Shown piece after piece: positions 13,739 to 34,697 of a DNA stretch of 64,000 nt (position 1 is its first letter; each line of letters starts with the position of its first letter). Source of the stretch: Saprospiraceae bacterium (GTDB lineage Bacteria; Bacteroidota; Bacteroidia; Chitinophagales; Saprospiraceae); NCBI GenBank assembly GCA_019187225.1, contig JABAQQ010000021.1, positions 67,600 to 131,599 on the forward strand, in the 5' to 3' direction. Position numbers and translations under genes: made by a program. Below the pieces are notes generated by a model. It was not told where the DNA came from. It ran no database searches and saw only the letters and a program-made list of their open reading frames with translations.

Positions 13739-13786
13739 AAATGTTACCTCCGTAAACTTCCGCTCTCAACCGCACCGCCACCTTTG
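13739..13786 (+). promoter_or_regulatory. Promoter A: GTTACC-TCC-GTAA operator plus CTTTG -7 element (glucosidase)
   Basis: Operator TGTTACCTCCGTAAAC at 13742-13757, then a C-rich spacer and CACCTTTG ending at 13786. From the operator G (13743) to the C of CTTTG (13782) is 39 nt, identical to the four other copies in this window. The start codon of the glucosidase is 26 nt further on. The operator centre falls near -41 if transcription starts a few bases after TTTG. Confidence 0.75.
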
Positions 13787-13812
13787 CCTCGTCAAATTTA
13801 AAAAACGAGACA

Positions 13813-16578
13813 ATGAAAAATATCGTCGCCCAACCCAAATCCGAAATCCGCAATCCCAAATCCGCAATCATCAATCCCGAATCAACCCGTTTGAAAGAAC
13901 ACTATTCCGGCATAAAAAACTGGCTCCAATGGGGGCCCTATCTCTCTGAACGCCAGTGGGGCACTGTCCGCGAAGACTACTCGTCCGGCGGCACGGCCTG
14001 GGATTTTTTCCCCCACGACCACGCCCGTTCGCGCGTCTATCGCTGGGGTGAAGACGGTATCGCGGGCATCAGCGACGAATGGCAGCGCCTTTGCTTCGCC
14101 GTCGCCCTCTGGAATGGCAAAGATCCCATTCTCAAAGAGCGGCTCTTCGGTCTTACCGGCAGCGAAGGCAATCACGGCGAGGACGTGAAGGAACTCTATT
14201 TCTACCTCGACAACACGCCCACGCACACGTACATGAAACACCTGTACAAGTACCCGCAGGCGGAATTTCCTTATGCCGAATTGGTACGCGAAAACGCCTG
14301 GCGCGGACGCGAACAGCCAGAATACGAACTGCTCGACACGGGCATTTTTGATGAAAACAAATATTGGGACGTGTTCACCGAATACGCCAAAGGGGACGAA
14401 GACGACCTCTTGATCAAGATCACCGCCCACAACCGCGGCGCAGAAAGCGCCGAACTGTGGCTGCTGCCCACGCTATGGTTTCGCAACCTGTGGTCGTTCG
14501 GGCTGATGAAGGAGAAACCGTGCATTCGCCAGTCGTTCGACGGCTTAAAGCCGTCGGACGACTACGGCCTCGTTTCGCTTTACCACGAAAAACTCGGCGA
14601 CTACCACTTTTACTTCCACACCCCCGACCGCCTGCTTTTTACCGAAAACGAAACCAACCGCGAGCGGCTCTGGAACCAGCCGAACGATTCGCCTTTCGTG
14701 AAAGACGCTTTTCATACAGCCGTGATCAACAACAACTTCGGCTTCCTGGAAGGCAAAACCGAAGGAACCAAGTTCGCCCCGATGTACCGGGTAAAAGTGG
14801 ATGGCGGCAGCAATACATCCTTTCAATTCCGCCTTTCCAAACAGGCTTTGAAAACGCCATTCGGGAAAGATTTCGATAACATTTTCACGGAACGGAAAAA
14901 AGAAGCGGACTTCTTTTACGAAAAATTGCCAGAAACCAGAAACCAGAAACCAGAAACCAGAAACCAACAACTTGAAATCCAGCGCCAGGCTCTCGCCGGC
15001 ATGCTCTGGTCGAAGCAGTATTTTAACATTGACATGCCGCGATGGCTCGACGGCGACCCCGGCCAGATACCACCGCCCGAAAGCCGCAAAACGGGGCGCA
15101 ATGCCCACTGGCGCACGCTCAACAACGAGGACATCATCTCCATGCCCGACAAGTGGGAATACCCCTGGTATGCGGCCTGGGACCTGGCTTTCCACTGTGT
15201 CCCGCTCGCTATGGTGGATGCGGAATTCGCTAAGAATCAACTAATTCTGTTCCTGCGCGAATGGTACATGCACCCCAGCGGCCAGTTGCCCGCCTACGAA
15301 TGGGCTTTCGGCGACGTGAACCCGCCCGTGCACACCTGGTCGTGTTTGCAGGTCTATAAAATGGATAAAGCAATGCGAACTCCCCCCCTCATGGGGGGGC
15401 AGGGGGGGGCTGGAGACGTGGATTTTCTGAAAAAAGTCTTCCAAAAACTGCTCATCAACTTCACCTGGTGGGTCAACCGCAAAGACCACAAAGGCAACAA
15501 CGTGTTCGAGGGAGGCTTTCTCGGCCTGGACAATATCGGCGTATTCGACCGCTCGAATCAAATCCCCGGCGGCGGCTACCTCGAACAAGCCGACGGCACT
15601 GCGTGGATGGGCATGTACTGCCTGAACATGCTCGAAATGGCGCTCGAAATCGCCCAGCACGACCCGACTTTCGAGGATGTGGCGACCAAATTCTTCGAGC
15701 ATTTCATCTACATCGCCGAAAGCCTCAACCGCATCGGCCACGACTGGACGGGGGCCTGGGACGAAATGGAAGGTTTTTTCTATGACATACTCGGCTTGCC
15801 GAACGGCGAATATATTCCGTTGAAAGTGAGGTCGTTGGTGGGATTGAGCACTCTTTTCGCGGCTTATGTGCTACCAAAAGAAAAACTGGAAAAACTGCCT
15901 GACTTCACCCGCCGCCTGCGCTGGTTCCAGCAATACCGTACCGACAACGGCGACTACCTCGTGCTGGACGAAGACCCCGTGAACGGCGATATCCTACTCT
16001 CACTCATTCCGCAAGAGCGCCTGAGCCGCCTGCTCCACGCCATGCTGGATGAAAATGAATTTCTTTCCCCCGGCGGTATCCGTTCTATTTCAAAAGTGCA
16101 TGAAAACGGCTACTCGGTGCGCATCGCCGGGCAGGAGTTCGGTCTCCGCTACGAGCCGGGCGAAAGCAGTACCGGCCTTTTCGGCGGCAACTCCAACTGG
16201 CGCGGCCCCGTCTGGATGCCGATGAATTACCTGTTGATCAAGGCTTTACGCGAGTATGGAAAGTTCTACGACACTGAATACACCGTCGAATTTCCGACGG
16301 GCAGCGGCCGTCAAATGTGCCTGTCGGAAGTGGCCGACGCTTTGTCGCGGCGATTGATCTCGATTTTTGAAAAAGACGAAAACGGCCGGCGGCCTGTGAA
16401 CGGGCACTGGCACGAGACGGAGTCTCGCGCCAGCCGGATTTACGCGGAAAATCCGCATTTTCAAGACCTTGTTTTGTTCTACGAATATTTCCACGGCGAC
16501 ACGGCGCGGGGCGTGGGCGCGAGCCATCAGACGGGCTGGACGGGCGTGGTCGCGGCGTTGATCGGGGAGTTGGGGTGA
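13813..16578 (+). CDS. GH63-type glucosidase (glycogen-debranching-like), with several in-frame repeat insertions
   Basis: 921 residues; no signal peptide, so probably cytoplasmic. Matches large bacterial GH63 glucosidases: N-terminal beta-sandwich from WGPYLSERQWGTVREDYS, then an (alpha/alpha)6 barrel with WYAAWDLAFHCVPLAMVD (catalytic Asp region), NWRGPVWMPMNYLLIKAL and the closing [20 protein letters not shown]. It likely releases glucose from alpha-glucosides or branched glucans. Five segments look foreign: residues 8-24 (AATCCG words), about 237-247 (GGCTT palindrome), about 374-386 (CCAGAAA words), about 522-535 (C8/G7 palindrome at 15379-15416) and about 869-874. The last is an 18-nt insertion absent from the duplicated tail at 17800-17955. 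It is driven by promoter A. Confidence 0.88.
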   Translation: MKNIVAQPKSEIRNPKSAIINPESTRLKEHYSGIKNWLQWGPYLSERQWGTVREDYSSGGTAWDFFPHDHARSRVYRWGEDGIAGISDEWQRLCFAVALWNGKDPILKERLFGLTGSEGNHGEDVKELYFYLDNTPTHTYMKHLYKYPQAEFPYAELVRENAWRGREQPEYELLDTGIFDENKYWDVFTEYAKGDEDDLLIKITAHNRGAESAELWLLPTLWFRNLWSFGLMKEKPCIRQSFDGLKPSDDYGLVSLYHEKLGDYHFYFHTPDRLLFTENETNRERLWNQPNDSPFVKDAFHTAVINNNFGFLEGKTEGTKFAPMYRVKVDGGSNTSFQFRLSKQALKTPFGKDFDNIFTERKKEADFFYEKLPETRNQKPETRNQQLEIQRQALAGMLWSKQYFNIDMPRWLDGDPGQIPPPESRKTGRNAHWRTLNNEDIISMPDKWEYPWYAAWDLAFHCVPLAMVDAEFAKNQLILFLREWYMHPSGQLPAYEWAFGDVNPPVHTWSCLQVYKMDKAMRTPPLMGGQGGAGDVDFLKKVFQKLLINFTWWVNRKDHKGNNVFEGGFLGLDNIGVFDRSNQIPGGGYLEQADGTAWMGMYCLNMLEMALEIAQHDPTFEDVATKFFEHFIYIAESLNRIGHDWTGAWDEMEGFFYDILGLPNGEYIPLKVRSLVGLSTLFAAYVLPKEKLEKLPDFTRRLRWFQQYRTDNGDYLVLDEDPVNGDILLSLIPQERLSRLLHAMLDENEFLSPGGIRSISKVHENGYSVRIAGQEFGLRYEPGESSTGLFGGNSNWRGPVWMPMNYLLIKALREYGKFYDTEYTVEFPTGSGRQMCLSEVADALSRRLISIFEKDENGRRPVNGHWHETESRASRIYAENPHFQDLVLFYEYFHGDTARGVGASHQTGWTGVVAALIGELG
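16455..16578 (+). repeat. Direct repeat copy 1 (3' end of the glucosidase gene)
   Basis: 124 bp ending with the glucosidase stop codon. It is identical to 17832-17955 except for one T/C difference near the end. Weaker homology extends about 25 bp further upstream, where copy 1 has an 18-nt extra segment (16417-16434). Confidence 0.97.
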
Positions 16579-17964: not shown

Positions 17965-18012
17965 AAATGTAACCCAGGTAAATTTTCACCCCGCCGCCCC
18001 ACCCGACCTTTG
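17965..18012 (+). promoter_or_regulatory. Promoter B: TGTAACC-CAG-GTAA operator plus CTTTG element (DinB)
   Basis: Operator AAATGTAACCCAGGTAAA, G at 17969; GACCTTTG ends at 18012, and the G-to-CTTTG distance is again 39 nt. The start codon of the DinB gene is 28 nt downstream. This is the only copy that reads GG instead of CG before TAA, which makes its TWACC/GGTAA half-sites the most symmetrical of the five. Confidence 0.75.
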
Positions 18013-18040: not shown

Positions 18041-18643
18041 ATGATACATAATTCATTAACAGTCAACGAAAACGAAGACCAGGTTATGAACGCCAAACAA
18101 GGTACCATCCTCATCGCCGCCCAAATGGCCGGCCTGCTCGAACGCCTCGACGAAGTCACGTTCACCCGTCCTCTGCCACTCTTTCACGGCAGCACCATCG
18201 GGCAACACTTCCGGCACATCCTCGAGTTCTATACCTGCCTGTTCGAGGGCGTTTTGCCGGCACGGGTGGATTACAGCGGCCGGAAGCGCAACCACGCCAT
18301 CAGCGAAAAACCCGGCGTCGCATTGGCCGTGCTCGACTACATCGCCGACGCCGTGAAGCGGCAGGACGAACACCAATGGCTCAATGTGGAAAGCGAATTT
18401 TCCGACGAAGTTGTCGCCCACGTTCAGCGCCCGGTGTACATGTCGAGCATGGGCCGCGAATTGCAATACGCTTTCGATCACGCGGTACACCACCTGGCGA
18501 TCATTCGCATGGGGCTGGAGGTGTATTTCCCTGAAATTCAGGTGGATGAAGATTTGGGCGTGGCGCCTTCGACTTTAAAATACAAAAAAGAAGGAAGAAA
18601 AATCCGGCTCGGAGACGCGATTCCGAAGACGGTGTATGGATAA
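18041..18643 (+). CDS. DinB-superfamily protein
   Basis: 200 residues from the ATG at 18041; a second ATG 45 nt downstream (MNAKQGT) would also preserve the fold. Four-helix DinB-type protein: the first His in STIGQHFRHILEFY and a His pair in LQYAFDHAVHHLAIIRMGLE match the family's three-His metal site. Function unknown; relatives are mycothiol- or bacillithiol-type transferases. It is only distantly similar to the DinB protein at 11382-12014. It is the first gene after promoter B and is followed by the debranching enzyme on the same strand with a GTTGATAA inverted repeat between, so the operon may continue. Confidence 0.82.
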   Translation: MIHNSLTVNENEDQVMNAKQGTILIAAQMAGLLERLDEVTFTRPLPLFHGSTIGQHFRHILEFYTCLFEGVLPARVDYSGRKRNHAISEKPGVALAVLDYIADAVKRQDEHQWLNVESEFSDEVVAHVQRPVYMSSMGRELQYAFDHAVHHLAIIRMGLEVYFPEIQVDEDLGVAPSTLKYKKEGRKIRLGDAIPKTVYG

Positions 18644-18750: not shown

Positions 18751-20793
18751 ATGATTTCATTTAAAAACACACATCCCGATTTTCAGGAACTCACCTCGAA
18801 GGAGTGGTTGCTGACCAACGGCATTGGCGGGTACGCTTCATCCTCCGTCATCGGCGCCAACACCCGGCGTTATCACGGCTTGCTGGTGGCTTCCCTCAAC
18901 CCGCCGACCGCCCGCACCGTCATGGTGTCGAAAGTGGAAGAGTGCATCGTGTTCAACCGCGATTGTGCCTTCGGCTTGTCGAGCAATCAATACCCTGGCG
19001 CATTGCATCCGCAGGGTTTTCAATACTTCAAATTTTTTGAACGGAAACCACTGCCACGTGTCAAATTCGAAGCGCACGGCCATCATTTGCTGAAGACGGT
19101 GTTTATGGTACATGGCTCCAACACCACCATTATAGAATACCAAAACACGGGCGATACCACTTTCAAACTACGCCTTACACCCTTGTTCGTTCACCGCGAC
19201 TATCATGCACTGAGTAGAGAAAACAATTTCGACGATTATTGGATGAGGCCGCAAAATGGTTGTTATGTGCTCTATGCGCATTATGGCGCGCCACCTTTGT
19301 ATTTCAATTTCAGTTCCGGAGAATTTTCGGAGAGCCGCCACTGGTTCAAAAACCTCGAGTACATCCGCGAACGGGAGCGCGGTCTTGATTACCGCGAAGA
19401 CGCTTTTTCCGTCGCCAATATTGACGTCGTGCTAAAACCCGGCGCGAAGGCGCATCTGATTTTTTCCACCGATGAAAAAATGGCGAAAGTCGACCCGGAA
19501 ATGCTGAAGATCAAAGAATTGGAGCGTTTGGAGCAAATTGCACCGAAAAACGAGGGAGATTCTTTTTTACGGGATTTGATGTTGGCGGGAGAGCAGTTCA
19601 TTGTGCGGCGCAACAGCACGGACGGCTACTCTCTCATTGCGGGCTTCCATTGGTTTGCCGATTGGGGGCGCGATACGATGATCGCCATGCGCGGCCTCAC
19701 GATCGCCACCGGCAAACGGGAGGTTTCAAAATCCATCCTCGAAACCTTTCTTCACTCGGTGAACAGAGGAATATTGCCCAACCGCTTCCCCGATAATCCC
19801 GGCGACGCAGTGGAATACAATACCATTGATGCGACACTGTGGTTATTCGTGGCGCTGTACGAATACCATCAGAAGTTTCAGGATTTGAGTTTTATCGCGG
19901 AGCATCTCGATACGCTGAAGGATATTCTGGAATATCACATCGCCGGCACGCGCTACAATATCCACGTCACCCCTGAAGGATTTCTTGCCGGCGGCGAAGG
20001 TCTGGCACAACTCACCTGGATGGACGCCCGCATAGGCGACTATGTGGTGACGCCACGCCACGGTTGTCCTGTAGAGATTCAGGCACTGTGGTTCAATGCG
20101 TTGCGTATTTACCAGTATTTTGCCGGAACACTCGGAAAACCTTATGAAAAATACCAGGCCATCGGCGATTCGCTGCGGGTTCATTTTAAGAAATACTTCG
20201 TTCGCCCGAACGGAAGCCTTAACGACGTCGTCAAATTCAGCGACCAACTGCCCGAAAGTTCGGACCCCGCCGCAGATACTTCTGTTCGCCCCAACCAAAT
20301 CTACGTCGTCAGCCTGCCATTTTCTTTGCTCGAAAAGGACGCGGAAATGCGCGTGGTGGAAATCGTGCGCCAACACCTTCTGACCGATTACGGTTTGCGT
20401 ACACTGTCGCCGGAGCATCCGGATTTCAAACCGCTATATGGTGGTAGCCCTTGGGAACGGGACACAGCTTATCACCAGGGCACTGTATGGCCTTTCCTGA
20501 TCGGCGAGTATATCACGGCATTTTTAAAAGTCAATGACTGGTCGGAAAAGGCTCAAAAAGAAGTGTTTGCATTGCTGGAACCTTTAAAAAAGCATTTTTA
20601 CCAAAACGACTGCATCCTCGGCATTTCCGAAATTTTCGATGGGAAAATGCCGCGCGCAGGCAAAGGCACAGTACATCAGGCCTGGTCGGTCGGAGCAGTC
20701 CTGAAAATTTTACTCGATCTGAAAAGCCGCCAGAAAAAAGGCCGCCGCCATTCGCTAATTCCTTTTTCAGAAATAAAGTCCATGATTTTTTGA
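18751..20793 (+). CDS. Amylo-alpha-1,6-glucosidase (GH133 glycogen debranching enzyme)
   Basis: 680 residues; cytoplasmic. N-terminal GDE_N beta-domain (about 10-230, starting EWLLTNGIGGYASSSVIGANTRRYHGLL in the usual order) and a C-terminal (alpha/alpha)6 barrel with the catalytic signature FADWGRDTMIAMRG, then VEIQALWFNAL and HQGTVWPFLIGEY. It hydrolyses alpha-1,6 branch points of glycogen or limit dextrin. Length is normal for the bacterial family, and the gene is intact with no repeat insertions visible. It follows the DinB gene 107 nt downstream and may share promoter B. Together with the GH63 enzyme it gives the island a glucan-degrading theme. Confidence 0.93.
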   Translation: MISFKNTHPDFQELTSKEWLLTNGIGGYASSSVIGANTRRYHGLLVASLNPPTARTVMVSKVEECIVFNRDCAFGLSSNQYPGALHPQGFQYFKFFERKPLPRVKFEAHGHHLLKTVFMVHGSNTTIIEYQNTGDTTFKLRLTPLFVHRDYHALSRENNFDDYWMRPQNGCYVLYAHYGAPPLYFNFSSGEFSESRHWFKNLEYIRERERGLDYREDAFSVANIDVVLKPGAKAHLIFSTDEKMAKVDPEMLKIKELERLEQIAPKNEGDSFLRDLMLAGEQFIVRRNSTDGYSLIAGFHWFADWGRDTMIAMRGLTIATGKREVSKSILETFLHSVNRGILPNRFPDNPGDAVEYNTIDATLWLFVALYEYHQKFQDLSFIAEHLDTLKDILEYHIAGTRYNIHVTPEGFLAGGEGLAQLTWMDARIGDYVVTPRHGCPVEIQALWFNALRIYQYFAGTLGKPYEKYQAIGDSLRVHFKKYFVRPNGSLNDVVKFSDQLPESSDPAADTSVRPNQIYVVSLPFSLLEKDAEMRVVEIVRQHLLTDYGLRTLSPEHPDFKPLYGGSPWERDTAYHQGTVWPFLIGEYITAFLKVNDWSEKAQKEVFALLEPLKKHFYQNDCILGISEIFDGKMPRAGKGTVHQAWSVGAVLKILLDLKSRQKKGRRHSLIPFSEIKSMIF

Positions 20794-20909: not shown

Positions 20910-21461
20910 ATGAAATTTACACTCATCGTCATCCTCGGCGTAGCCATCGCGGCTGCCCTGAATTCAACCGGCAAACCGAACGAATACACAGGCGACACGC
21001 TTTCCGGCAATCTGCAATCCGAAATCCGCCATCCGCAATCATCGGATAATCCGCGCACCAAACACTTCCGCCTCGATAAAAACCGCGTGGCCATAGACGG
21101 CTATGATCCGGTCTCATACTTTAAGGGTGGACCCAAAAAAGGCAGTACGGCCCAGGCTTTTGACTACAACGGCGTGGTCTATCACTTCGCCAATGCTGCC
21201 AACCTGGCCGAATTCAAAACCAATCCCGGCAAATACGAACCTGTTTGGGGCGGTTGGTGCGGCCATGCTATGGCCCTGCGCGGCGAAAAGGTGGAGATCA
21301 ATCCGGAGTGTTACAAAATCGTGAATGGCCGCAACGTCCTGTTTTTCAAATCTTTTTACGCCAACGCTTTGACCAACTGGGAAAAGGAGATCAAAAAGAC
21401 ACCTGAAAATACCCTGATGGCAAAGGGCGATGATTTTTGGGCGAAGACGCTTTTGAAATAA
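20910..21461 (+). CDS. Secreted YHS-domain protein
   Basis: 183 residues from the ATG at 20910 (MKFTLIVILGVAIAAAL), which opens a signal peptide. The mature part carries a YHS domain at about 60-120 (IDGYDPVSYFKGG, FANAANLAEFKTNPGKYEPVWGGWCG), a small metal-associated module; the single Cys and neighbouring residues may bind metal. Residues about 34-48 (LQSEIRHPQSSDNP) come from AATCCG words and look like an in-frame repeat insertion between signal and domain. It is paralogous to the YHS protein at 34815-35303, which belongs to another unit of the same operator set. Role unknown. Confidence 0.85.
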   Translation: MKFTLIVILGVAIAAALNSTGKPNEYTGDTLSGNLQSEIRHPQSSDNPRTKHFRLDKNRVAIDGYDPVSYFKGGPKKGSTAQAFDYNGVVYHFANAANLAEFKTNPGKYEPVWGGWCGHAMALRGEKVEINPECYKIVNGRNVLFFKSFYANALTNWEKEIKKTPENTLMAKGDDFWAKTLLK

Positions 21462-21539: not shown

Positions 21540-22277
21540 ATGCTACATGTACTTAAAAACAACTGGCCCAACTACCTCATCGAGGCCTGGGCGCTGGGGA
21601 TGTTTATGCTCTCGGCTACTTTTTTTGCCGGCTTGCTGGGATTGCCGGGTTGGCCGGGACATGGCATCGAAGATCCGTTTGTACGGCGCCTGCTCATGGG
21701 CCTGGCAATGGGATTGACCGCCGTCGGACTGATCTACTCCGGCTGGGGCCGCCGCTCAGGGGCACACATGAATCCCGCTTTTACGCTCACTTTTTTGTTT
21801 CTGAAAAAAATTGACCGGCGCAACGCGATTTGGTACATCCTCTTTCAATGCCTTGGCGGAGCTGCGGCCATGTTGCTGTTCAAAAGTCTGTTTCCGGCCT
21901 TTGTTGCCGCGCCGGAAGTCAACTATGTGCAAACCCAACCGGGTATGTTGGGAGTGGCGGGTGCATTCGTCGCTGAGGCGCTTATCTCGTTCGGGCTTGT
22001 CCTAACCGTCTTGTATTCAAGTAATTTTGAAAAAACAGCACCCTACACGGGCGTTTTTGCCGGCTGCCTCGTGATGCTGTATATTACAATTGAAGACCCG
22101 TTTTCCGGGATGTCCATGAATCCCGCGCGGACGCTTGCTTCGGCGGTAGCGGCGGGCAATTTCATGCACTTTTGGATTTACCTGACAGCGCCTTTGATCG
22201 GAATGTTGGGCGCAGCGAAAGTGTGGAAGGTATGGATTTGCCGGAAGGCGGAGTTTCGGTGCGGGTATCACGGATAG
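21540..22277 (+). CDS. Aquaporin / MIP-family channel
   Basis: 245 residues with six membrane helices and both pore loops: GAHMNPAFTLTF after helix 2 and GMSMNPARTLASAV after helix 5, so both NPA motifs are intact. The Arg after the second NPA is present (NPAR), as needed for the selectivity filter. MIP channels conduct water, glycerol or other small neutral solutes; the substrate is not decidable here. It ends 145 nt before the SDR gene, and promoter C lies in that gap. It is probably in the unit that starts at promoter B. Confidence 0.92.
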   Translation: MLHVLKNNWPNYLIEAWALGMFMLSATFFAGLLGLPGWPGHGIEDPFVRRLLMGLAMGLTAVGLIYSGWGRRSGAHMNPAFTLTFLFLKKIDRRNAIWYILFQCLGGAAAMLLFKSLFPAFVAAPEVNYVQTQPGMLGVAGAFVAEALISFGLVLTVLYSSNFEKTAPYTGVFAGCLVMLYITIEDPFSGMSMNPARTLASAVAAGNFMHFWIYLTAPLIGMLGAAKVWKVWICRKAEFRCGYHG

Positions 22278-22298: not shown

Positions 22299-22346
22299 AA
22301 ATGTAACCTGCGTAATTTTTCGCAAGACAAATCACCCTGACTTTTG
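22299..22346 (+). promoter_or_regulatory. Promoter C: TGTAACC-TG-CGTAA operator plus TTTTG element (SDR operon)
   Basis: Operator AAATGTAACCTGCGTAAT, G at 22303; GACTTTTG ends at 22346, again 39 nt from G to the first base of the YTTTG pentamer. The SDR start lies 75 nt further downstream. It begins 21 nt after the aquaporin stop, so this is an internal promoter in a run of plus-strand genes. Confidence 0.75.
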
Positions 22347-22421: not shown

Positions 22422-23120
22422 ATGAAATCCATCATCGTCACCGGCGCGTCCGGCAACATGGGACAGGCTGTCGTAAAACGTTTCGCACAAGACGGCCAAA
22501 AAGTGTACGCTGTGCTTGGTCTTGGCGAGAATTCCCGCCTGTTCAGCGAGAGCGCCATGGCCCAAAACATTGATACGCAATTCCTCAACCTGACCGACGA
22601 AACCGTATCGGAAGGGTACGTAAAAACCATCGTTGCCAAAGACCCCGCCGTGGAAGCGGCTGTATGCATCGTGGGCGGTTGGCAACCCGGAACGCTCTCT
22701 GAAACAACAGGTTACGAATTGGACAAGATGCTAAAACTCAATTTTTACACCGCTTTCAACATCGCCAAACCGCTCATGGAATACTTCGAGCGGCGAGGCG
22801 GCGGGCAGTTCATCTTTATCGGCGCGCGACCGGCCATTAACCCCGCGGAAGCGAGAAATCAGGTGGCCTACGCCCTATCGAAATCGTTGGTGTTCCGCCT
22901 GGCAGAGATCATTAACGACCAGGGAAAATTCAAAAACATCCGCGCCAGCGTGGTCATACCCTCCGTGCTCGACACACCCCAGAACCGTGCCGCCATGCCC
23001 GACGCCGATATGAGCGATTGGGTCACACCTGAATCCGCCGCCGATACCATTGCGTTCATCCTGAGCGAAACGGGCAGCGCCCTGCGGGAGACGGTGATCA
23101 AACTGTACAATCAAGCGTGA
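22422..23120 (+). CDS. Short-chain dehydrogenase/reductase
   Basis: 232 residues, classical SDR length. Coenzyme motif TGASGNMGQAV (TGxxGxxG) at about 7-17, the LNFYTAFNIAKP helix, the active-site Tyr/Lys in QVAYALSKS (YxxSK variant of YxxxK), and a short C-terminus. The catalytic Ser strand reads FIFIGARPAI, without the usual Ser. Close relatives are unassigned NAD(P)-dependent reductases. It is the first gene behind promoter C and heads a run of seven more plus-strand genes up to the Crp/Fnr regulator at 28379. Confidence 0.85.
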   Translation: MKSIIVTGASGNMGQAVVKRFAQDGQKVYAVLGLGENSRLFSESAMAQNIDTQFLNLTDETVSEGYVKTIVAKDPAVEAAVCIVGGWQPGTLSETTGYELDKMLKLNFYTAFNIAKPLMEYFERRGGGQFIFIGARPAINPAEARNQVAYALSKSLVFRLAEIINDQGKFKNIRASVVIPSVLDTPQNRAAMPDADMSDWVTPESAADTIAFILSETGSALRETVIKLYNQA

Positions 23121-23185: not shown

Positions 23186-23530
23186 ATGGAAACCTACCGT
23201 CTCATCCTCCTGCAACGCCTTTCCAACGGCATCGAATTGCTGAGCGCCGTAGTGCTGTTGGTCGGATTTGCCAAAGGCATGTGGGGCTTTTTGCTCCACG
23301 AATGGCGCGCCATGCATTCCCATTCCGGAATGTCGCCCGAAAATGTGTCGGCCCTCCGCCCGATGGTGGGCAACTACATCCTGCTGGGTCTGGATTTTTA
23401 CATCGTATCAGACATTCTCGCCACCATGCTGCATCCCGAATGGAACGAACTCATCAGCCTGGCTGTCATCGGTTTACTCCGCACGACGATAGGGTATTTT
23501 TTGGGGAAAGAAATTGCTGTTGAAAAATAG
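23186..23530 (+). CDS. DUF1622 family membrane protein
   Basis: 114 residues with three predicted membrane helices (about 15-35, 62-84, 88-108). It matches the DUF1622 family: RLSNGIELLSAVVLLVGFAKG, then GNYILLGLDFYIVSDIL and LISLAVIGLLRTTIGYFLGKE. Function unknown. The ATG at 23186 sits at the outer edge of the preceding inverted repeat, so the repeat forms the leader. Probably co-transcribed with the SDR and the following small membrane gene. Confidence 0.85.
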   Translation: METYRLILLQRLSNGIELLSAVVLLVGFAKGMWGFLLHEWRAMHSHSGMSPENVSALRPMVGNYILLGLDFYIVSDILATMLHPEWNELISLAVIGLLRTTIGYFLGKEIAVEK

Positions 23531-23771
23531 GGCATTGGACGTTGGACAGTTGGACGTTGGACAGTTGGACGTTGGACTGTTGGACGTTGGACTGTTGGAC
23601 GTTGGACTGTTGGACGTTGGACATTGGATCGTTGAAAACCGGATTTTTGAAGATCAGCATGTCGCATAAAACACACGCGTCCAATTTCCAATGTCCAACA
23701 GTCAAATGTCCAATCGTCAAACGTCCAATGTCCAATCGTCAAACGTCAAACGTCCAATGTCCAATCGTCAA
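23531..23771. repeat. Long TTGGACGTTGGAC / GTCCAATGTC inverted repeat
   Basis: The left arm (23531-23632) is about ten 9- to 10-nt TTGGACRTT or TTGGACTG words. The right arm (about 23679-23771) carries the complementary GTCCAATCGTCAAAC words. Between them lie about 45 nt of unique sequence. It begins within the last bases of the DUF1622 gene's stop region and ends 12 nt before the next start codon. Confidence 0.92.
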
Positions 23772-23783
23772 ATGTCTTCTGAA

Positions 23784-26620: not shown

Positions 26621-26732
26621 AAATGGTTGATAAAAGTTGATAAGAATTGATGAGGTTGATAACGTAGAGTGCGCCGCGATTTATCAACTCTTATCAACCT
26701 TCATAAACCCTCCTCAACCTTTATAAACAATT
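26621..26732. repeat. GTTGATAAA / TTTATCAAC inverted repeat (second copy)
   Basis: Left arm GGTTGATAAAAGTTGATAAG, core ACGTAGAGTGCGCC, right arm TTATCAACTCTTATCAACC plus CTCAACC words. Same family as 18645-18735, ending 9 nt before the esterase start. Confidence 0.85.
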
Positions 26733-26740
26733 CTTTTATT

Positions 26741-28159
26741 ATGAAAACAATCACCGCTCATCTTCATTCTCTTCCACCCCAAACCCCACCCGGCGCGGCG
26801 CTTTTCCTCGCCGGCAATGTCAATGGCTGGCAGCCGGACGACGAACGTTTTCGCTTTCAGCCGAACGGCGACGGCTCCTATCGTCTTGATTTTCAGGCCG
26901 ATCTGGATACACTCGAATACAAGATCACACGCGGCCACTGGTCGGCTGCCGAAGGCGATGCCGAGGGCAGGGAATTGTCCAACCGCGTTGCCAAAATCAG
27001 CGCCGCAGAAAATGAGCTCTGGATGCGCATAGAATCCTGGACGGATCTGTATCAAAAAACGCAGGGATACGACCTGCCGGAAAACATTATGCTGCTCCAT
27101 CCCGATATTTATATGCCGCAACTGGAGCGCAGCCGCCGCATCTGGGTTTGTTTGCCGCCCGATTATTGGACCGATCCCAAACGACGCTATCCGGTCGTGT
27201 ATATGCAGGACGGCCAAAACCTCTTCGATAATCCCGAAGCCCTGTTCGGCTCCTGGGGGATTGACAAGGCGATGAACCGCCTGTTTATAAATGAACAGAT
27301 GCCTTTCAACAGCGATCATACAGTGACTGCCGTCTACCCTCAATCGTCCGCCGTCAACCGTCAACCGATTATCATCGGGATAGAAAACGGCGGGCAGCAT
27401 CGCATCGCTGAATATTCTCCCTGGCGAAATGCCCGGCATGGCGGCGGAGAGGGCGCTCAATATCTTGATTTTGTGTGCGATACGCTCAAACCCTTTGTGG
27501 ACGAACACCTGCGCACTTTACCGGGACGAGAACATACCGCCATCATGGGCAGCAGCATGGGCGGCCTGATCTCACTGTATGCAGCGGTCGAAAAACCGAA
27601 GGTATTCGGCATGGCGGGTGTGTTTTCACCCTCTTTGTGGTTCTCCAAAGAGGTTTATCAAATGGTCAAAAACCGCAAGCCGGACTTATCCGTAAGGATA
27701 TTACTCATGGCGGGTCAGCAGGAAAGCCGGAATATGGTGGCCGATCTGCTCGATCTGTACGAGACATTGCTCGAAGCAGGTCATATAGAAGAAAACCTGC
27801 ATTACGATCTGCACTCTGATGGCGTACACAGCGAATGGTTTTGGGCGCGCGAATTTGAACACGCCTTGCGCTGGTTGTTCGGCGACATGCCCGGACATGA
27901 ACGGGGCGGCATTACAGGTGATCTGATAAAATTTCAGGTAGACACGAAAGCGAAAGAACTGATCGTCCATGTCTCCCCCAAAATAGCGGAACCGCGTCTG
28001 GAGATTCGCGACTACTGCCACAACCGGCAGTTCCATCACCCGCTCGATCACCATGATAACCGAATCCCTTATGCAGAATGGGAAAACTGCATTTACTCCT
28101 TACGTTTGCACTCGAAGGGAGACCTGGTTTTTTCCCGGAGGGTGACGGTGGGGGAATGA
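26741..28159 (+). CDS. Putative esterase with N-terminal CBM48/E-set domain
   Basis: 472 residues; no signal peptide. Residues about 8-85 form a CBM48/20-like module (FLAGNVNGWQPDDERFRFQ, DGSYRLDF). This is followed by an esterase D-type alpha/beta hydrolase (about 130-385): RRIWVCLPPDYW, YPVVYMQDGQNLFD, the nucleophile elbow GSSMGGLIS and HSEWFWAREFEHAL carrying the catalytic His. A C-terminal beta-domain of about 75 residues is extra. Such enzymes hydrolyse acyl esters of sugars or siderophores; substrate unknown, but the glucan-binding module fits the GH63/GH133 neighbours. Residues about 197-212 (VYPQSSAVNRQP) are encoded by ACCGTCAACC-type repeat words. Confidence 0.85.
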   Translation: MKTITAHLHSLPPQTPPGAALFLAGNVNGWQPDDERFRFQPNGDGSYRLDFQADLDTLEYKITRGHWSAAEGDAEGRELSNRVAKISAAENELWMRIESWTDLYQKTQGYDLPENIMLLHPDIYMPQLERSRRIWVCLPPDYWTDPKRRYPVVYMQDGQNLFDNPEALFGSWGIDKAMNRLFINEQMPFNSDHTVTAVYPQSSAVNRQPIIIGIENGGQHRIAEYSPWRNARHGGGEGAQYLDFVCDTLKPFVDEHLRTLPGREHTAIMGSSMGGLISLYAAVEKPKVFGMAGVFSPSLWFSKEVYQMVKNRKPDLSVRILLMAGQQESRNMVADLLDLYETLLEAGHIEENLHYDLHSDGVHSEWFWAREFEHALRWLFGDMPGHERGGITGDLIKFQVDTKAKELIVHVSPKIAEPRLEIRDYCHNRQFHHPLDHHDNRIPYAEWENCIYSLRLHSKGDLVFSRRVTVGE

Positions 28160-28378: not shown

Positions 28379-29053
28379 ATGAAGAGTGTCTGGTTCTTCG
28401 AAGAAGTGGATTTGTACGAGATACTTTGCCCGTACAAATACAGCGACCACATCAAAGCGCATCCGTTGAGTTGTTACAACAAAACGGATTTCCTGTTCAT
28501 GGAGGGCGATCCGGTTCGGGAGATATTTCTGGTGGCCGAAGGCAGGGTAAAAGTAGGTTTTTATGACAACGATGGCAACGAACAAGTCATCGCCTTCCTC
28601 GGTCGCGGCGAGATACTGGGCGAAATGGCTTTGTTCGGCCAACAACGCTACAAGGAATTTGCCCAAGCTGTTACCGATCGCACGATGATCTGCAAACTCC
28701 GGGTAGAAAAAGCGCAGGAACTCGTACGCGATTTTGTGCCTTTTTCGCTCACCATCACCAAGCGTATGGGCGAACGCATGCAAAAATTTGAACGCCGCCT
28801 CCAGATACTCCTGTTCAAAGATGCCCGCCAGCGACTTGTGGAATTTTTAAAGGATTTGTGCCGCGACATTGGTACGCCCTACCGCACCGGTGTAAAGATC
28901 ATGCTCGACATCACACAAAGCGATATTGCAGCGCTCATTGGCGCCTCGCGCAAGACGGTATCGCTGTTGTTCACCGACCTGGAAGAAGCAGGGCTGGTGA
29001 AATTTTACGGAAGGAAGGAGATCTACGTGGCGGATGTGGGGAAACTGGCCTGA
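28379..29053 (+). CDS. Crp/Fnr-family transcriptional regulator
   Basis: 224 residues from the ATG at 28379. The frame is open further upstream, but that part only translates the hairpin. N-terminal effector-binding beta-roll at about 22-120 (FLFMEGDPVREIFLVAEGRVKVGFY, FLGRGEILGEMALFG with the phosphate-binding-cassette position), a dimer helix at about 120-150 and a complete winged HTH (ITQSDIAALIGASRKTVSLL). No Fnr-type cysteine cluster is visible. It closes the gene run behind promoter C and is the better of the two candidates for the shared operator, because it has a full-length DNA-binding domain; this is inference. It converges 2 nt from the HipA-like gene. Confidence 0.92.
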   Translation: MKSVWFFEEVDLYEILCPYKYSDHIKAHPLSCYNKTDFLFMEGDPVREIFLVAEGRVKVGFYDNDGNEQVIAFLGRGEILGEMALFGQQRYKEFAQAVTDRTMICKLRVEKAQELVRDFVPFSLTITKRMGERMQKFERRLQILLFKDARQRLVEFLKDLCRDIGTPYRTGVKIMLDITQSDIAALIGASRKTVSLLFTDLEEAGLVKFYGRKEIYVADVGKLA

Positions 29054-29055
29054 AG

Positions 29056-29919
29056 TCATTCCAATATCTCTATCGGAATCAATCCATCTTCAAACCTCGC
29101 CCGGTTTGCCTCTCGTCTTTTTTTCTTATCCGCTTCATTTTCAGGTATTATTTTTCCGATATCGAGCAAAGTATTATCAAAACGATCACGTTGTTCCATT
29201 GCATCGGCCAATCCTTTTATCAGCGCCTTTTTCAAATTTGCTACATCCGGTCTAACTGCCGCAGCCCATTCAGCGGGCAATGAATCCACGATGCCCGCGA
29301 TATCCGCTTCTTGTAACCGGGAGAATAACGCTGTCGCGATTACCGCGTTCAAGTCCTGGTGAAAGAGCGGATTTTCCCGCAACGCCTGCAAAACAAAATC
29401 GCTCTGCGAAAAATCTTTGCCCTGCACGATGCCTATGAGCAGAAAAGAGGTCTCGTAGTCGAAAGAAAAGACGCGGCCATCCAGTTCCAGCAGGTTCGGG
29501 TTTTGGGCCGAGCGGTCGGTATTCTGCAAAAAAACGTCGTAGGCGAACAGCCTTTGCGCCGCATTGTCGTATTCGGCACGGGCTGTTTTGGCAGAACAGG
29601 GAATGGCGTTTTCAAAGAACGGAAAGGCGAGGTTTAGCCCGAAACTCTTGTGGATCAGGTCTTTGACTTCTTCGTGAATGCCTACGGTATCCAGCGTTTC
29701 ATCTATCCGGATCGTCTCCGGCACGCTTACCGGCAAACCCAGCGCTGTGCCGAGGCGGCCCGCGATCCACTCGTTCAGGTAGGAATAACTACCGCTTTGC
29801 CCGCCTTTGAGTTTAACCAGGTATTTCCGCCCGTCGGCACTTTGCACCACGATGGGGGTGGAAGAGCCGGCGGGTAAAAAGGAGAGGAATTGGAGAGGGT
29901 GTGGGATGCGGGAAATCAT
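29056..29919 (-). CDS. HipA-like kinase-fold protein
   Basis: 287 residues from the ATG at 29917-29919; an upstream start at 29952 is possible. It matches the stand-alone HipA-like family (HipA_2 type): DGRKYLVKLKGGQSGSY with the ATP-binding Lys, YLNEWIAGRLGTALGLPV, the catalytic-loop-like NTDRSAQNPNLL and the metal-binding Asp in FSFDYETSF. No HipB antitoxin gene is adjacent, so a classical toxin-antitoxin pair is not supported. It is divergent from the GMC gene, with promoter D in the gap, and converges on the Crp/Fnr gene. Confidence 0.82.
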   Translation of the reverse strand: MISRIPHPLQFLSFLPAGSSTPIVVQSADGRKYLVKLKGGQSGSYSYLNEWIAGRLGTALGLPVSVPETIRIDETLDTVGIHEEVKDLIHKSFGLNLAFPFFENAIPCSAKTARAEYDNAAQRLFAYDVFLQNTDRSAQNPNLLELDGRVFSFDYETSFLLIGIVQGKDFSQSDFVLQALRENPLFHQDLNAVIATALFSRLQEADIAGIVDSLPAEWAAAVRPDVANLKKALIKGLADAMEQRDRFDNTLLDIGKIIPENEADKKKRREANRARFEDGLIPIEILE

Positions 29920-30010
29920 CGGATAGATTTCTGCAAAGATACGGCGAGGCAAGGCAACTGGCTACCCCACTGGTAACGGCGATGGCAGACTTTGCAAATC
30001 AAATTTTCCC

Positions 30011-30058
30011 CATTGTTACCCCCGTAACATCCCACCCTCCGCGTCCCCCGCACCTTTG
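30011..30058 (+). promoter_or_regulatory. Promoter D: TGTTACC-CC-CGTAA operator plus CTTTG element (GMC oxidoreductase)
   Basis: Operator ATTGTTACCCCCGTAACA, G at 30015; CACCTTTG ends at 30058, with a G-to-CTTTG distance of 39 nt. The GMC start is 66 nt further on. GTTAC and GTAAC are perfect complements here. Confidence 0.75.
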
Positions 30059-30124: not shown

Positions 30125-31657
30125 ATGAATTTCGACATCATCATCATCGGCACCGGCGCAGGCGGCGGTACCCTGGCTTACAAACTCGCCCCCACCGGCA
30201 AACGCATCCTCATCCTCGAACGCGGCGACTTCCTGCCCAAGGAAAAAGAAAACTGGGACCCGCTGGAAGTAGCCAAAGGCCGCTACAAAACCACTGAAAT
30301 GTGGCGCGACGCGGCAGGCAAAGAATTTTCCCCCTACCAGCACTACTGGGTCGGTGGCAACACCAAAATGTACGGCGGCGCTTTGCTCCGCTTGCGCGAA
30401 CGCGACTTCGAAGCCACTGAACACTTCGACGGACTTTCTCCCGAATGGCCGCTGAAATACCGGGATTTCGCGCCCTGGTACGACATGGCCGAGCAGCTAT
30501 ATGCCGTACACGGCACACGCGGCCTCGACCCTACCGAGCCGCCGGCGAAAAACGGCTACCCCTACCCTGCCCTGCCGTTCGAGCCGCGTATGGTTGAAGT
30601 CACCGGGCATATCCGCAGCCAGGGTTACCACCCCGCACCGATCCCACTCGCCATCCGCCTGCCGCAGGACCTGAACGGCCGCACCAACGACCGGCTTCAC
30701 GTCGAACTCTACGACGGCTACCCCGACCCCACCGGCGCCAAGGCCGACAGCCACGTCGTGGGTGTGCAGGGCGCCTTGCAATACCCCAATGTGACCTTGC
30801 TGCGCAACCGCAAGGCATTGAAAATCAATACCGACTCGAGCGGTCGCCGGGCATCGAGCGTTACCGTCGCCTGCGAGGGCATGGAAGAAACCTACCACGC
30901 CGAGACGATTGTGGTGGCTTGCGGCGCCATCAATTCCGCCGCCCTGCTGCTTCGATCGGCCAACGGCAAACACCCCAACGGGCTTGCCAACAGCAGCGGT
31001 CAGGTGGGTCGCAATCTCATGATACACAACAACGGCATCGTGCTGGCCTATTCGGCCAGGCCGAATCCTTCGACGTTTCAAAAGGCGATCCTGATACCCG
31101 ATTTCTACCACGGCGCCGACGGCGATCCGCGTCCTTTAGGTGCGATCCAGAATATGGGCAAAGCCGACCCGCTCCTGCTCGCCGACGCCTTAGGCGACGA
31201 CCTCGGCAAAGACGGTAAAGACGCGGCGCACTTTGCCAGCCATATCATTGATTACTTCATCACGGCGGAAGACTTGCCATTCGCAGAAAACCGGGTGACG
31301 GTAGACACGGATGGAAACATCCAACTTCACTACACACCCAACAACCTCGAAGCCTATCGCCGACTGCGCGAAAAACTCATCCAAATCATGGATCGAGTGG
31401 CTGAAAACGAAGGTGTCGGCGGCACTACCAGGTACTACGGCTTCAAACTCGGGATCGGTGGCGTGAGCCATCAAAACGGCACCTGCCGCTTCGGGCATGA
31501 TCCGCGCACTTCGGTGCTCGACCTGAACTGTAAAGCCCACGATCTCGACAATCTCTACGTCGTGGATACCTCGTTCTTCCCCTCGTCCGGCGCCGTGAAC
31601 CCGTCCCTGACAGCGATGGCAAATGCGCTGCGGGTAGGGGAAATTTTGAGTCATTGA
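30125..31657 (+). CDS. GMC-family FAD oxidoreductase
   Basis: 510 residues. FAD-binding motif GTGAGGGTLAYKL at about 9-21, ILERG as the ribose-binding strand, the VGGNTKMYGGALLRLRERDF loop, and the GMC C-terminal catalytic region with His in GGVSHQNGTCRFG and NPSLTAMANALR near the end (His/Asn pair). There is no Tat or Sec signal, so it is probably cytoplasmic unless exported with a partner. GMC enzymes oxidise alcohols and sugars such as glucose, gluconate or choline; no gluconate-dehydrogenase small subunit is next to it. First gene behind promoter D, followed after 32 nt by a VOC gene. Confidence 0.9.
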   Translation: MNFDIIIIGTGAGGGTLAYKLAPTGKRILILERGDFLPKEKENWDPLEVAKGRYKTTEMWRDAAGKEFSPYQHYWVGGNTKMYGGALLRLRERDFEATEHFDGLSPEWPLKYRDFAPWYDMAEQLYAVHGTRGLDPTEPPAKNGYPYPALPFEPRMVEVTGHIRSQGYHPAPIPLAIRLPQDLNGRTNDRLHVELYDGYPDPTGAKADSHVVGVQGALQYPNVTLLRNRKALKINTDSSGRRASSVTVACEGMEETYHAETIVVACGAINSAALLLRSANGKHPNGLANSSGQVGRNLMIHNNGIVLAYSARPNPSTFQKAILIPDFYHGADGDPRPLGAIQNMGKADPLLLADALGDDLGKDGKDAAHFASHIIDYFITAEDLPFAENRVTVDTDGNIQLHYTPNNLEAYRRLREKLIQIMDRVAENEGVGGTTRYYGFKLGIGGVSHQNGTCRFGHDPRTSVLDLNCKAHDLDNLYVVDTSFFPSSGAVNPSLTAMANALRVGEILSH

Positions 31658-31689
31658 AGGTCATTGAGGTCATTAAAAAACATCCAGCC

Positions 31690-32799
31690 ATGCAATACTT
31701 TTTTCAACAGATAGCCGCCGCTTCAGGCGCTTTTTTCCAATCGCGCTTTTTTTGCCCTGCAGTAAGCACCCGTCCGATCTACGGGTGGGTAGTGCTGCTG
31801 ACCTTTTGCCTGCCTTTATTCGTTTTCTCCCAAAAAGCCACCGCTGTCACGAGCGTGAGCATCACCGTCGAAGACCTCGATCGAGAGGTGGCATTTTTTA
31901 CAAAAGTTCTTGATTTTCAGAAAGTAAAAGAGGAAAAATGGGTGGGGGAAGAAGTGGCAAAATTGTTCGGCCTGCCGGAAAAAAAGGCCGGCGTCGAGGT
32001 CGTCACGCTTCAACTTGGCAAGGAGCATATCCGGCTGATGGACTTCGACGGCCCGGCTTCCCGGCCCATAACTTCCGATACCCGCAGCAATGACCTGTGG
32101 TTCCAACACCTTGCCATCGTCGTCAGCGATATGGACGCGGCCTATCAGAGATTGCTGAAAAACAAAGTAGCGCATGTCAGCACCGCTCCTCAGACCTTGC
32201 CCGATTACCTGCCCAATGCCGCCGGTATCAAGGCTTTTTATTTCCGCGACCCGGAGGGGCACAACCTCGAACTCATCTGGTTTCCACCGGAAAAAGGCAA
32301 TCCGCGCTGGCAACCGTCAACCGTCAACCGTCAATCGTCAACCGTTTTCCTCGGCATTGACCACACCGCCATCGGCATCTCCGACACGGATTCGAGCATG
32401 ACATTTTACCGCGACTTGCTCGGTCTCGTTCACGGCGGTCACTCGGAAAACTACGGCCCGGAGCAGGAGCATCTGAACCAGGTGTTCGGCGCGCGGCTCG
32501 ACATCAACGGACTTCATGCGGACAAAGGCTTTGGTGTGGAATTCCTGCGCTATATCGCCCCGCCCGGAGGTCGTCCCTTCCCTGCGGACAGCCGGCCCAC
32601 CGACTTATGGCATTATCAGACGGAAATGGAAGTGGACGACTTGTCGAAGGTGATGGAAAAACTTGAAAAACAAGGTTTTACAACAATTTCAAGCGCCGCC
32701 GCTACAATTGGAAATACCAAAATGTTCCTTGTTCGCGACCCAGACGGTCATGCGGTATTGTTGAAATCGCAGGCGAAAAACGATAGCGGAAAATTATAA
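31690..32799 (+). CDS. Exported protein with two VOC (glyoxalase-type) domains
   Basis: 369 residues from the ATG at 31690; a TTG start that overlaps the GMC stop is also open. N-terminal hydrophobic segment at about 32-50 (GWVVLLTFCLPLFVFSQ), likely signal or anchor. First VOC domain at about 52-200 (VTSVSITVEDLDREVAFFTK ... FYFRDPEGHNLELIWF), second at about 222-360 (GIDHTAIGISDTDSSMTFY ... LVRDPDGHAVLLK). Each domain keeps the terminal Glu- or Leu-type metal position. The linker PSTVNRQSSTVF is encoded by ACCGTCAACC words, so the two domains are joined by a translated repeat. Probably co-transcribed with the GMC gene. Confidence 0.85.
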   Translation: MQYFFQQIAAASGAFFQSRFFCPAVSTRPIYGWVVLLTFCLPLFVFSQKATAVTSVSITVEDLDREVAFFTKVLDFQKVKEEKWVGEEVAKLFGLPEKKAGVEVVTLQLGKEHIRLMDFDGPASRPITSDTRSNDLWFQHLAIVVSDMDAAYQRLLKNKVAHVSTAPQTLPDYLPNAAGIKAFYFRDPEGHNLELIWFPPEKGNPRWQPSTVNRQSSTVFLGIDHTAIGISDTDSSMTFYRDLLGLVHGGHSENYGPEQEHLNQVFGARLDINGLHADKGFGVEFLRYIAPPGGRPFPADSRPTDLWHYQTEMEVDDLSKVMEKLEKQGFTTISSAAATIGNTKMFLVRDPDGHAVLLKSQAKNDSGKL

Positions 32800-32906: not shown

Positions 32907-32941
32907 GCCGCCTCACGCCGCAAGGCGAAGGCGGCTTTTTT
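32907..32941 (+). terminator. Rho-independent terminator
   Basis: GCCGCCT (32907-32913) pairs with AGGCGGC (32929-32935), with an inner CGCC/GGCG stem, followed by six T. It closes the GMC-VOC unit. A second palindrome (TTTATCCGCC ... GGCGGATAAA, about 32826-32875) precedes it. Confidence 0.85.
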
Positions 32942-33033
32942 ATATTCGTAAAATGCGCGAATCAAAATACTTTTGCTTTTCCATTCGAGGTTTCAAATCA
33001 ACAAATCCACATTTCCCCAATTCACCCGAAAAC

Positions 33034-33570
33034 ATGAAATACCTGCTCCCTATCCGTGAAGAATTGACCTCCGAAGCCCTCGACATCATGGCCGCCTGCG
33101 AAGCAAAAGTCGGTTTTGTGCCCAGTATCGTCCAAATGCTCGCTTATTCGCCGCCCGCCCTCCGATCCTATCTCACCTTGTACGAAAACCAGGCACTTGG
33201 CGTGTTCAACGACCAGGAACGCGAAGCGATCTACCTCCCCGTCTCCCAGATGAACGGCAGCCAATACTGCCTCGCCGCCCACACCAACTGGGCCAAACTC
33301 GCCGGTCTTTCCGAAGAAGAAACCCTCGCGCTCCGAAAAGGCGTCCACCACGAGGATCCGAAACTCGACTTTCTCGCGCGTTTCGGTCGCGCCGTCGCCG
33401 AAACACGCGGTCAGGTCCCACCCGAACTCATGGACGAATTCGGGGAGCGTGGCTACGACGCCCGCGCTTTGCTCGACGTGATCGCCATCATCGTGGAGTC
33501 GGTTTTTTCCAACCTGATCGGCGTAATGATGCGGCCGCCGGTGGATTTTCCGGCGGTGAAGGAGGTTTAG
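33034..33570 (+). CDS. AhpD-like / carboxymuconolactone decarboxylase family protein
   Basis: 178 residues from the ATG at 33034. All-helical peroxidase-related AhpD-like family: LTLYENQALGVFNDQEREAI, then the motif NGSQYCLAAHTNWAKLAGL. The usual CxxC pair is reduced to a single Cys with Ser at the first position, while the following His is kept. This may abolish disulfide-based peroxidase cycling and leave another role. C-terminal IAIIVESVFSNLIG is typical. It is separated from the VOC gene by a terminator, so it has its own promoter (AT-rich stretch near 32950-33010). Confidence 0.83.
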   Translation: MKYLLPIREELTSEALDIMAACEAKVGFVPSIVQMLAYSPPALRSYLTLYENQALGVFNDQEREAIYLPVSQMNGSQYCLAAHTNWAKLAGLSEEETLALRKGVHHEDPKLDFLARFGRAVAETRGQVPPELMDEFGERGYDARALLDVIAIIVESVFSNLIGVMMRPPVDFPAVKEV

Positions 33571-33669
33571 GTGGTCATTGTGGGCATTGTGGTCATTTCG
33601 TTATTATCGCCACTCGTTGTTGTGGCTAATTTCTAAAAATGACGACGATAATAACTCAAATGACACAAC

Positions 33670-34569: not shown

Positions 34570-34649
34570 AAGACTCAATTTAAGATGTGGTTGATACAAC
34601 TGATGTGCAAAATCCGGCAACATCCCGTCCCGTCCCCACCTATTTTCCC

Positions 34650-34697
34650 AACTGTTACCTGCGTAACCTTGCGCTGACCTCGCCGCCCCGACTTTTG
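34650..34697 (+). promoter_or_regulatory. Promoter E: TGTTACC-TG-CGTAA operator plus TTTTG element (YHS operon)
   Basis: Operator AACTGTTACCTGCGTAACC, G at 34654, a perfect GTTAC/GTAAC pair; GACTTTTG ends at 34697, 39 nt spacing. The leader to the YHS start is 117 nt and contains CACCCAATC repeat words (34730-34790). Confidence 0.75.

Follow-up and report, generated by a model that had tools for sequence, protein, structure and literature searches.

Five promoter modules with a shared Crp/Fnr-type operator as a candidate class II regulon in a Saprospiraceae bacterium

We analyzed a stretch of 64,000 nucleotides (nt) from a Saprospiraceae bacterium (assembly GCA_019187225.1, contig JABAQQ010000021.1, positions 67,600 to 131,599; hereafter the window), in which five promoters carry a common palindromic operator at an invariant distance from the -7 element. 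Judged by sequence, the operator, its spacing, the promoter profile, the orthologous sites and their co-occurrence with one Crp/Fnr protein encoded in the window, designated CrpA, make it very probable that the five modules belong to a single CrpA regulon and act as class II promoters. A Crp/Fnr-type operator, one regulon and activator-dependent promoters had been proposed for this DNA beforehand (the original prediction), and all three gain support from this analysis.

Operators at a fixed distance from the -7 element

The window holds all five predicted operator copies (Table 1), each followed by a gene on the same strand. With the T of TGT taken as offset 0, a YTTTG pentamer begins at offset 40, that is, 39 nt past the operator G, in five of five copies and is preceded each time by CAC or GAC, just as had been described. 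The pentamer itself needs a wider form: YTTTG holds for the five copies in the window, but conserved ATTTG sites exist (upstream of the gene for P366, an uncharacterised protein, in genomes G000, G007, G009 and G031, and upstream of the gene for short-chain dehydrogenase/reductase (SDR) 1 in G009), and the general form is NTTTG. Below, TGTWAC-N4-GTWA is called the core (14 bases) and TGTWAC-N4-GTWA-N26-YTTTG the module.

The core TGTWACCNNSGTAA had six exact matches in the 7,183,558-base genome, all on the forward strand, and five of them lay inside 21 kb of the window. The reversed control matched seven times in the same genome, and the 14-base core taken alone therefore shows no excess over chance; the non-random features are the clustering of cores and their coupling to the -7 element. 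With its fixed spacing, the module was found six times in the genome, compared with zero for the reversed control. The sixth core, on contig C25, is part of a module as well, with a gene for a CotH-like protein beginning 517 nt downstream, and a similar site was found before a CotH-like homolog (62%) in G031. A pattern equally dense away from promoters or genome-wide had been named as grounds for abandoning the prediction, and the module and core counts do not show one.

A variable-gap search over 31 gap lengths was performed in 60 genomes, including the window's own. In the six genomes encoding CrpA, offset 40 held 32 of 49 operator/YTTTG pairs and every other offset at most three, whereas in the other 54 genomes offsets 40, 41 and 42 held 13, 12 and 13 of 191 pairs. 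For 32 of 49 pairs p is ~7e-36 under an even spread over the 31 gaps, but an even spread is approximate and orthologous sites are non-independent, and we rely instead on the contrast between the two groups of genomes. These counts take the nearest pentamer for some sites, and one offset-40 site of G023 was counted at offset 25. Loci fetched from seven genomes and one further contig (375 kb), chosen for holding or adjoining modules and not for the spacing of each core, contained 48 exact cores. In 38 of them NTTTG stands at offset 40. The other 10 arise when palindromic operators of this group are read on the opposite strand, which leaves 38 distinct exact cores sharing one spacing. The fixed operator-to-promoter distance that marks class II promoters is thus seen in both sets. 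A stricter module (ACNTTTG) was also searched for in a phylum-wide sample of 395 genomes, of which only the window's own encodes CrpA. That genome gave seven matches, the other 394 gave five in total (one each), and the reversed control gave four in total.

Promoter profile and proposed mechanism

A profile was compiled from 42 sites in 11 ortholog groups. Its core and TTTG columns were used for picking and are hence uninformative, and only sites with an intact core and TTTG at offset 41 were retained (one core mismatch was allowed in L097/L098), so that the set cannot test spacing. Offsets -3, -2 and -1 were A in 26, 35 and 27 of the 42 sites, mirrored by T at offsets 18, 17 and 16 in 20, 30 and 32. 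From these AAA/TTT flanks, which are independent of site selection, it follows that the operator is a 22-bp palindrome, the size looked for in a Crp/Fnr operator, and it is this palindrome that CrpA would bind. Further upstream, 230 of the 252 bases at offsets -12 to -7 were A or T. On the other side, CCC preceded the -7 element (C at offsets 33-35 in 27, 32 and 32 sites), offset 38 was A in 42 of 42, offset 48 was a pyrimidine in 37 and offset 49 a purine in 41. The earlier statement that nothing but C-richness is conserved in the remainder of the module therefore fails on the flanks, the A/T tract, the CCC, the invariant A and the purine alike. The Bacteroidota -7 consensus is given as TAnnTTTG in the available part of one source, with T at the position matching offset 37 (PMC7366714); that base was G or C in 37 of our 42 sites and other than T in 38, and T occupied it in nine of the 13 offset-40 sites of genomes lacking CrpA.

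If transcription starts at the conserved purine at offset 49, the operator centre (offset 7.5) would lie at -41.5 and the invariant A at -11, with the A/T tract (offsets -12 to -7) spanning -61 to -56. An operator centred at -41.5 is class II geometry for CRP. Class II assignment takes this distance from a mapped start, and the profile would fit it if the start is the purine found in 41 of 42 sites; on that condition the class II activator position that had been suggested gains support. TTG is indeed missing at -33, as had been reported, yet many sites keep a TT at -33/-32, which reads as the mirrored arm of the 22-bp palindrome.

In the mechanism that we propose, a CrpA dimer, switched on by some signal, would bind AAA-TGTWAC-CNNS-GTWACA-TTT centred at -41.5 and so cover the place of the missing -33 element. 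It would contact RNA polymerase, with the alpha C-terminal domain probably resting on the A/T tract, and would drive opening at a weak -7 element, SACNTTTG, in which the A at -11 is kept and the T at -12 is missing. The units switched on in this way would be GH63/glycogen debranching enzyme (GDE), SDR/Rieske, GMC and YHS/HbpS/SGL. CrpA would also act on two targets elsewhere in the genome, the CotH-like protein and P366, and probably on its own gene.

An operator in this position overlaps the expected polymerase footprint, and CrpA could instead repress, covering -52 to -31 and blocking RNA polymerase until its release switches the genes on; BT4338, a Crp-type regulator of B. thetaiotaomicron, acts both ways according to the available part of PMC6989115. 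We consider repression unlikely, as the bare promoter, with the T at -12 missing in 38 of 42 sites and no TTG at -33, seems too weak to need it, and a repressor needs neither invariant spacing nor an upstream A/T tract. Less likely still is that the modules are copies of one duplicated block whose spacing was inherited and not selected. The spacers of the five window modules do resemble each other more than shuffles do (mean identity of 49% vs 36%, the operator and TTTG identities being partly by construction), but in our reading the columns that recur over the whole set (TT at 16-17, CCC at 33-35) account for this likeness. Within single ortholog groups spacer identity falls to 40-66% with its length unchanged, and 38 of 38 exact cores keep the spacing. 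Such drift at constant spacing indicates that the length is under selection even if the copies arose by duplication, which largely refutes block copying as a sufficient explanation.

CrpA and its candidate targets

CrpA has an N-terminal cNMP-binding-type domain (PF00027, 68.3 bits vs a cut-off of 27.5) and a C-terminal Crp-type winged helix-turn-helix (PF13545, 53.2 bits vs 27; PF00325, 25.5 vs 21). No NCBIfam equivalog names its Crp/Fnr group; it fell below the cut-offs for E. coli CRP (NF008732, 86 bits vs 266), NtcA (TIGR03697, 80.8 vs 244.95) and FNR (NF008365, 63 vs 228). Compared with the standard spacing of the four-cysteine Fe-S motif of FNR, the cysteines of CrpA (17, 32, 105 and 161) do not form the N-terminal cluster, and the 51% ortholog described below keeps two of them. 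Among the 60 genomes, searched at E up to 1e-20, orthologs with 79-94% identity were found in G007, G008, G009, G023 and G031, and all other matches were at most 38% identical. The six genomes with CrpA are exactly those with at least three modules; 45 of the other 54 have none and nine have one or two. In a sample of 295 genomes over the class, only the window's own genome and G143, from another family, matched CrpA at E of 1e-55 or below. The G143 protein is 51% identical, and a single module, TGTTACCTACGTAACA followed by TACTTTTG at the right distance, lies between its crpA and a GH63 (62%)-SDR2 (69%) unit. CrpA was also found at 84% identity on JAKLJF010000048, a 14.7-kb contig of a metagenome-assembled genome labelled Thermoanaerobaculia, with three modules, before SDR1, GMC and YHS2. 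This contig (L084) carries the cluster at 51-88% protein identity; either the contig was wrongly binned, and its label with it, or the cluster may have been transferred between phyla.

The recognition helix SRKTVSLL was present in eight of eight CrpA proteins and in none of 23 relatives compared, of which 21 paralogs have SRQTV(T/A)T and two flavobacterial homologs SRPTLN. The CrpA proteins form a clade in the tree (100/99 with G143, to be taken with caution as G143 is a long branch). By motif numbering, CrpA has R at 180, K at 181 (8/8 proteins) and L at 185. Residues 180 and 181 are tied to operator bases G3 and A6 in the available text of PMC1274295, and loss of E181/R185 would fit the W that replaces the G of TGTGA. 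The two flavobacterial homologs (44-45%) were considered as carriers of the same regulon and rejected, with no module in ~20 kb each and the SRPTLN helix.

Since CrpA and its targets travel together, co-occurrence within the cluster amounts to about one event and is weak evidence alone. P366 and G143 break this link. P366 is encoded outside the cluster, and its orthologs (at least 55% identity) have the module in four of six genomes with CrpA (G000, G007, G009 and G031) vs none of 11 without (Fisher p = 0.006). The ortholog of G031 was taken from a different search, this genome not being among the 38 screened for P366. No exact core was found at 14 more distant P366 matches (31-40%), and the P366 locus of G004 has one core with one mismatch and TTTG not at the right distance. 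G055 has GDE, SDR and GH63 genes together (GH63 58%), but a search at E 1e-20 found no CrpA there, and the 8 kb that hold these genes contain no core, even with one mismatch allowed.

These patterns point to CrpA, and not to the second Crp/Fnr-type gene at 13130-13714, as the regulator of the modules. The original prediction had counted both genes in the set, and the second protein might read the operators alone or with CrpA, as in G000 its gene is transcribed away from operator 1, and in G031 it adjoins the same site. We hold this to be very improbable, and its membership is not borne out, since its distribution mismatches that of the modules: orthologs of 57-78% occur in six module-free genomes (G005, G006, G014, G016, G030 and G034), another occurs in G027 with a single module match, nothing above 41% was found in G008 and G023 though both have modules, and the ortholog lies away from the cluster in G007 (on another contig) and G009 (~370 kb off). 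Chance pairing of C-rich intergenic DNA with a common -7 word, which the unenriched core alone might suggest, has a negligible probability and is ruled out by the module, spacing and phylum counts and by the orthologous sites.

Several observations weigh against a CrpA regulon of class II promoters. CrpA and most of its targets are passed on as a group; at E 1e-100, GMC is found only in the same six genomes. The 42 profile sites are non-independent, falling in 11 ortholog groups. P366 lacks the module in two genomes with CrpA (G008 and G023), and G055, which lacks CrpA, shows two module matches in other parts of its genome. Among the 32 sites at offset 40, two (G031 C37 and C315) have the sequence TGTAAC-N4-GTTACC and might be those of a different Crp protein. 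The GMC start of G009 lies 1,659 nt past its module, one module of G031 precedes a GATase gene, and autoregulation would not be universal, as crpA of G143 lies upstream of the site. Finally, much the same pattern could be produced by a repressor bound at -41.5.

The genes behind the operators are listed in Table 1. The 200-aa protein behind operator 2 had been labelled DinB, but it has no Pfam hit at 1e-3. One of the two SDRs exceeds the NCBIfam cut-off for a glucose 1-dehydrogenase subfamily, and our guess is that the units serve the oxidative use of glucose from alpha-glucans or compatible solutes, perhaps under carbon or osmotic stress. Where the cluster is split, extra modules occur before SDR2 (G007) and VOC2 (G008); the P153 site in G007 and G009 has one core mismatch. 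The ~1.6 kb between the GMC module and the GMC start in G009 (L068:7980 onward) may reflect an insertion.

Table 1. Operators, -7 elements and genes of the window; starts are predicted from the conserved purine.
Feature	Coordinates	Strand	Remark
Second Crp/Fnr-type gene	13130-13714	-	divergent from operator 1; only the cNMP-binding domain reaches Pfam; judged not the regulator
Operator 1 (22-bp Crp-type palindrome)	13739-13760	+	upstream of GH63/MGH1-like hydrolase
-7 element 1 (CACCTTTG)	13779-13786	+	predicted start 13791
GH63/MGH1-like glycoside hydrolase	13813-16578	+	candidate target, behind operator 1
Operator 2	17965-17986	+	upstream of 18041-18643
-7 element 2 (GACCTTTG)	18005-18012	+	predicted start 18017
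200-aa protein	18041-18643	+	candidate target, behind operator 2
Glycogen debranching enzyme, GDE_N/GDE_C	18751-20793	+	probable target, same unit as 18041-18643
YHS-domain protein 1 (below Pfam cut-off)	20910-21461	+	probable target
MIP aquaporin family protein	21540-22277	+	probable target
Operator 3	22299-22320	+	upstream of the SDR to CrpA unit
-7 element 3 (GACTTTTG)	22339-22346	+	predicted start 22351
SDR oxidoreductase 1	22422-23120	+	candidate target, behind operator 3
DUF1622 protein	23186-23530	+	unit behind operator 3
Ferric-reductase-like/Rieske protein	24576-25667	+	unit behind operator 3
Putative esterase	26669-28159	+	unit behind operator 3
CrpA, Crp/Fnr protein (cNMP-binding domain and helix-turn-helix; helix SRKTVSLL)	28379-29053	+	last gene of the operator 3 unit
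Operator 4	30011-30032	+	upstream of GMC oxidoreductase
-7 element 4 (CACCTTTG)	30051-30058	+	predicted start 30063
GMC oxidoreductase	30125-31657	+	candidate target, behind operator 4
VOC protein	31744-32799	+	after GMC
CMD-family protein	33040-33570	+	after VOC protein
Operator 5	34650-34671	+	upstream of the YHS-HbpS-SGL-SDR unit
-7 element 5 (GACTTTTG)	34690-34697	+	predicted start 34702
YHS protein 2	34815-35303	+	candidate target, behind operator 5
HbpS-like protein	35304-35834	+	after YHS protein 2
SGL protein	35855-37519	+	after YHS protein 2
Glucose-1-dehydrogenase-like SDR	37717-38532	+	after YHS protein 2

Other features were seen in the same loci. A gene for a HipA-like kinase (PF20613) lies antisense between crpA and the GMC promoter (window 29056-29952), and an unannotated gene of similar length occupies this position in G031 (L077:13133-14017). 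A 24-bp tandem repeat (12094-12193) in the C-terminus of an alpha/beta hydrolase gene codes for an NPTGNPTD repeat, long arrays of 7-bp and 22-50-bp repeats occupy 44883-45361 and 62606-62903, and similar short GGAC/GTCC repeats occur at 23535-23776. Another Crp/Fnr protein, with helix SPREAISR in L079 and L083, is encoded near TGTAAC-N4-GTWACC sites at offset 40 or 41 from the -7 TTTG (gene and site, respectively: L083:4981-5586 and 6950; L079:6870-7493 and 8950; L100:4359 and 6052), with genes for a fatty-acid hydroxylase, a DUF983 protein and a metallo-beta-lactamase/rhodanese protein as neighbours in L083. This protein and these sites are probably a further class II regulon in the genus. 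TGTAAC-N4-GTWAC sites at offset 40 were also seen in other families of the order (L004-L008 and L018-L022).

Comparison with known regulators

Class II promoters of E. coli CRP have a 22-bp palindrome, AAA-TGT...ACA-TTT, centred at -41.5 with the alpha C-terminal domain upstream, and the arrangement predicted here is the same; unlike in E. coli, the TGTGAT half-site becomes TGTWAC, and cAMP is not implied. To our knowledge, few activator-dependent promoters of Bacteroidota have been mapped. In the present set, one promoter is represented by some forty natural variants, orthologous and paralogous, and a candidate regulator can be named for it. How class II activation works with a polymerase of the TAnnTTTG type, and what the -12 base contributes, can thus be tested directly. 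The set also supplies the operator and recognition helix of a Crp/Fnr group, along with genes that might lead to its signal. A bolder proposal, about which we are more doubtful than confident, treats CrpA as the founder of a new Crp/Fnr subfamily that responds to a new effector. Its promoters would then form a class of their own for the primary sigma factor of Bacteroidota, strictly dependent on an activator and marked by the lost T at -12, the retained A at -11, the fixed gap of 22 nt and an A/T tract for alpha, and they would control a small oxidative glucose/osmolyte module.

The original prediction knew of no described regulon with this operator. This holds among the matches listed, as no description of the operator with a Bacteroidota regulator was found there in the open-licence literature, but a close relative, HcpR2, has been published (PMC1274295). 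As far as the available text of that source goes, the HcpR2 site, GTAACnnnnGTTAC, is predicted in Bacteroides among others and judged consistent with Pro-181. Like HcpR2, CrpA is a Crp/Fnr protein with 5-4-5 half-site geometry and a replaced glutamate 181. HcpR2, however, carries Pro-181 and controls hcp (PMC1274295). In CrpA residue 181 is Lys (8/8 proteins), the sites stand before sugar and redox genes, with no hcp family found among the target proteins scanned, and they mostly have TGTTAC in the left half (32/42) and GTAA in the right. Occurrences of TGTTAC in the available part of PMC545781 are mainly NikR sites, and that of PMC12040651 yielded no usable motif. CRP/FNR homologs in Saprospiraceae metagenome-assembled genomes, the same family as here, were predicted to sense carbon, without a known ligand, and were scanned with the Bacteroides MalR matrix; an operator of the CrpA type was not seen in the available part of that report (PMC8510549).

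MalR/BT4338 of Bacteroides resembles CrpA in being a Crp-type protein of Bacteroidota linked to carbohydrate genes, and MalR is argued not to sense cAMP; it differs in its half-site (wwwTATGTTnTAnAACATAwww) and its broad regulon, as described in the accessible text of PMC6989115. The class II promoters of cyanobacterial NtcA, so far as they are covered in the accessible part of PMC3898017, have the centre at -41.5 that is predicted here and share the operator family GTA-N8-TAC, and the 22 nt between operator core and -7 octamer equal the 22 nt reported between an NtcA class II site and its -10 box (PMC3898017). NtcA_cyano is also the second-best NCBIfam match of CrpA, far below its cut-off; CrpA differs from NtcA in its phylum, in its -7/-10 element and in having no evidence for 2-oxoglutarate. 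As a whole, the arrangement is a textbook one, while this switch and its site seem to be previously undescribed.

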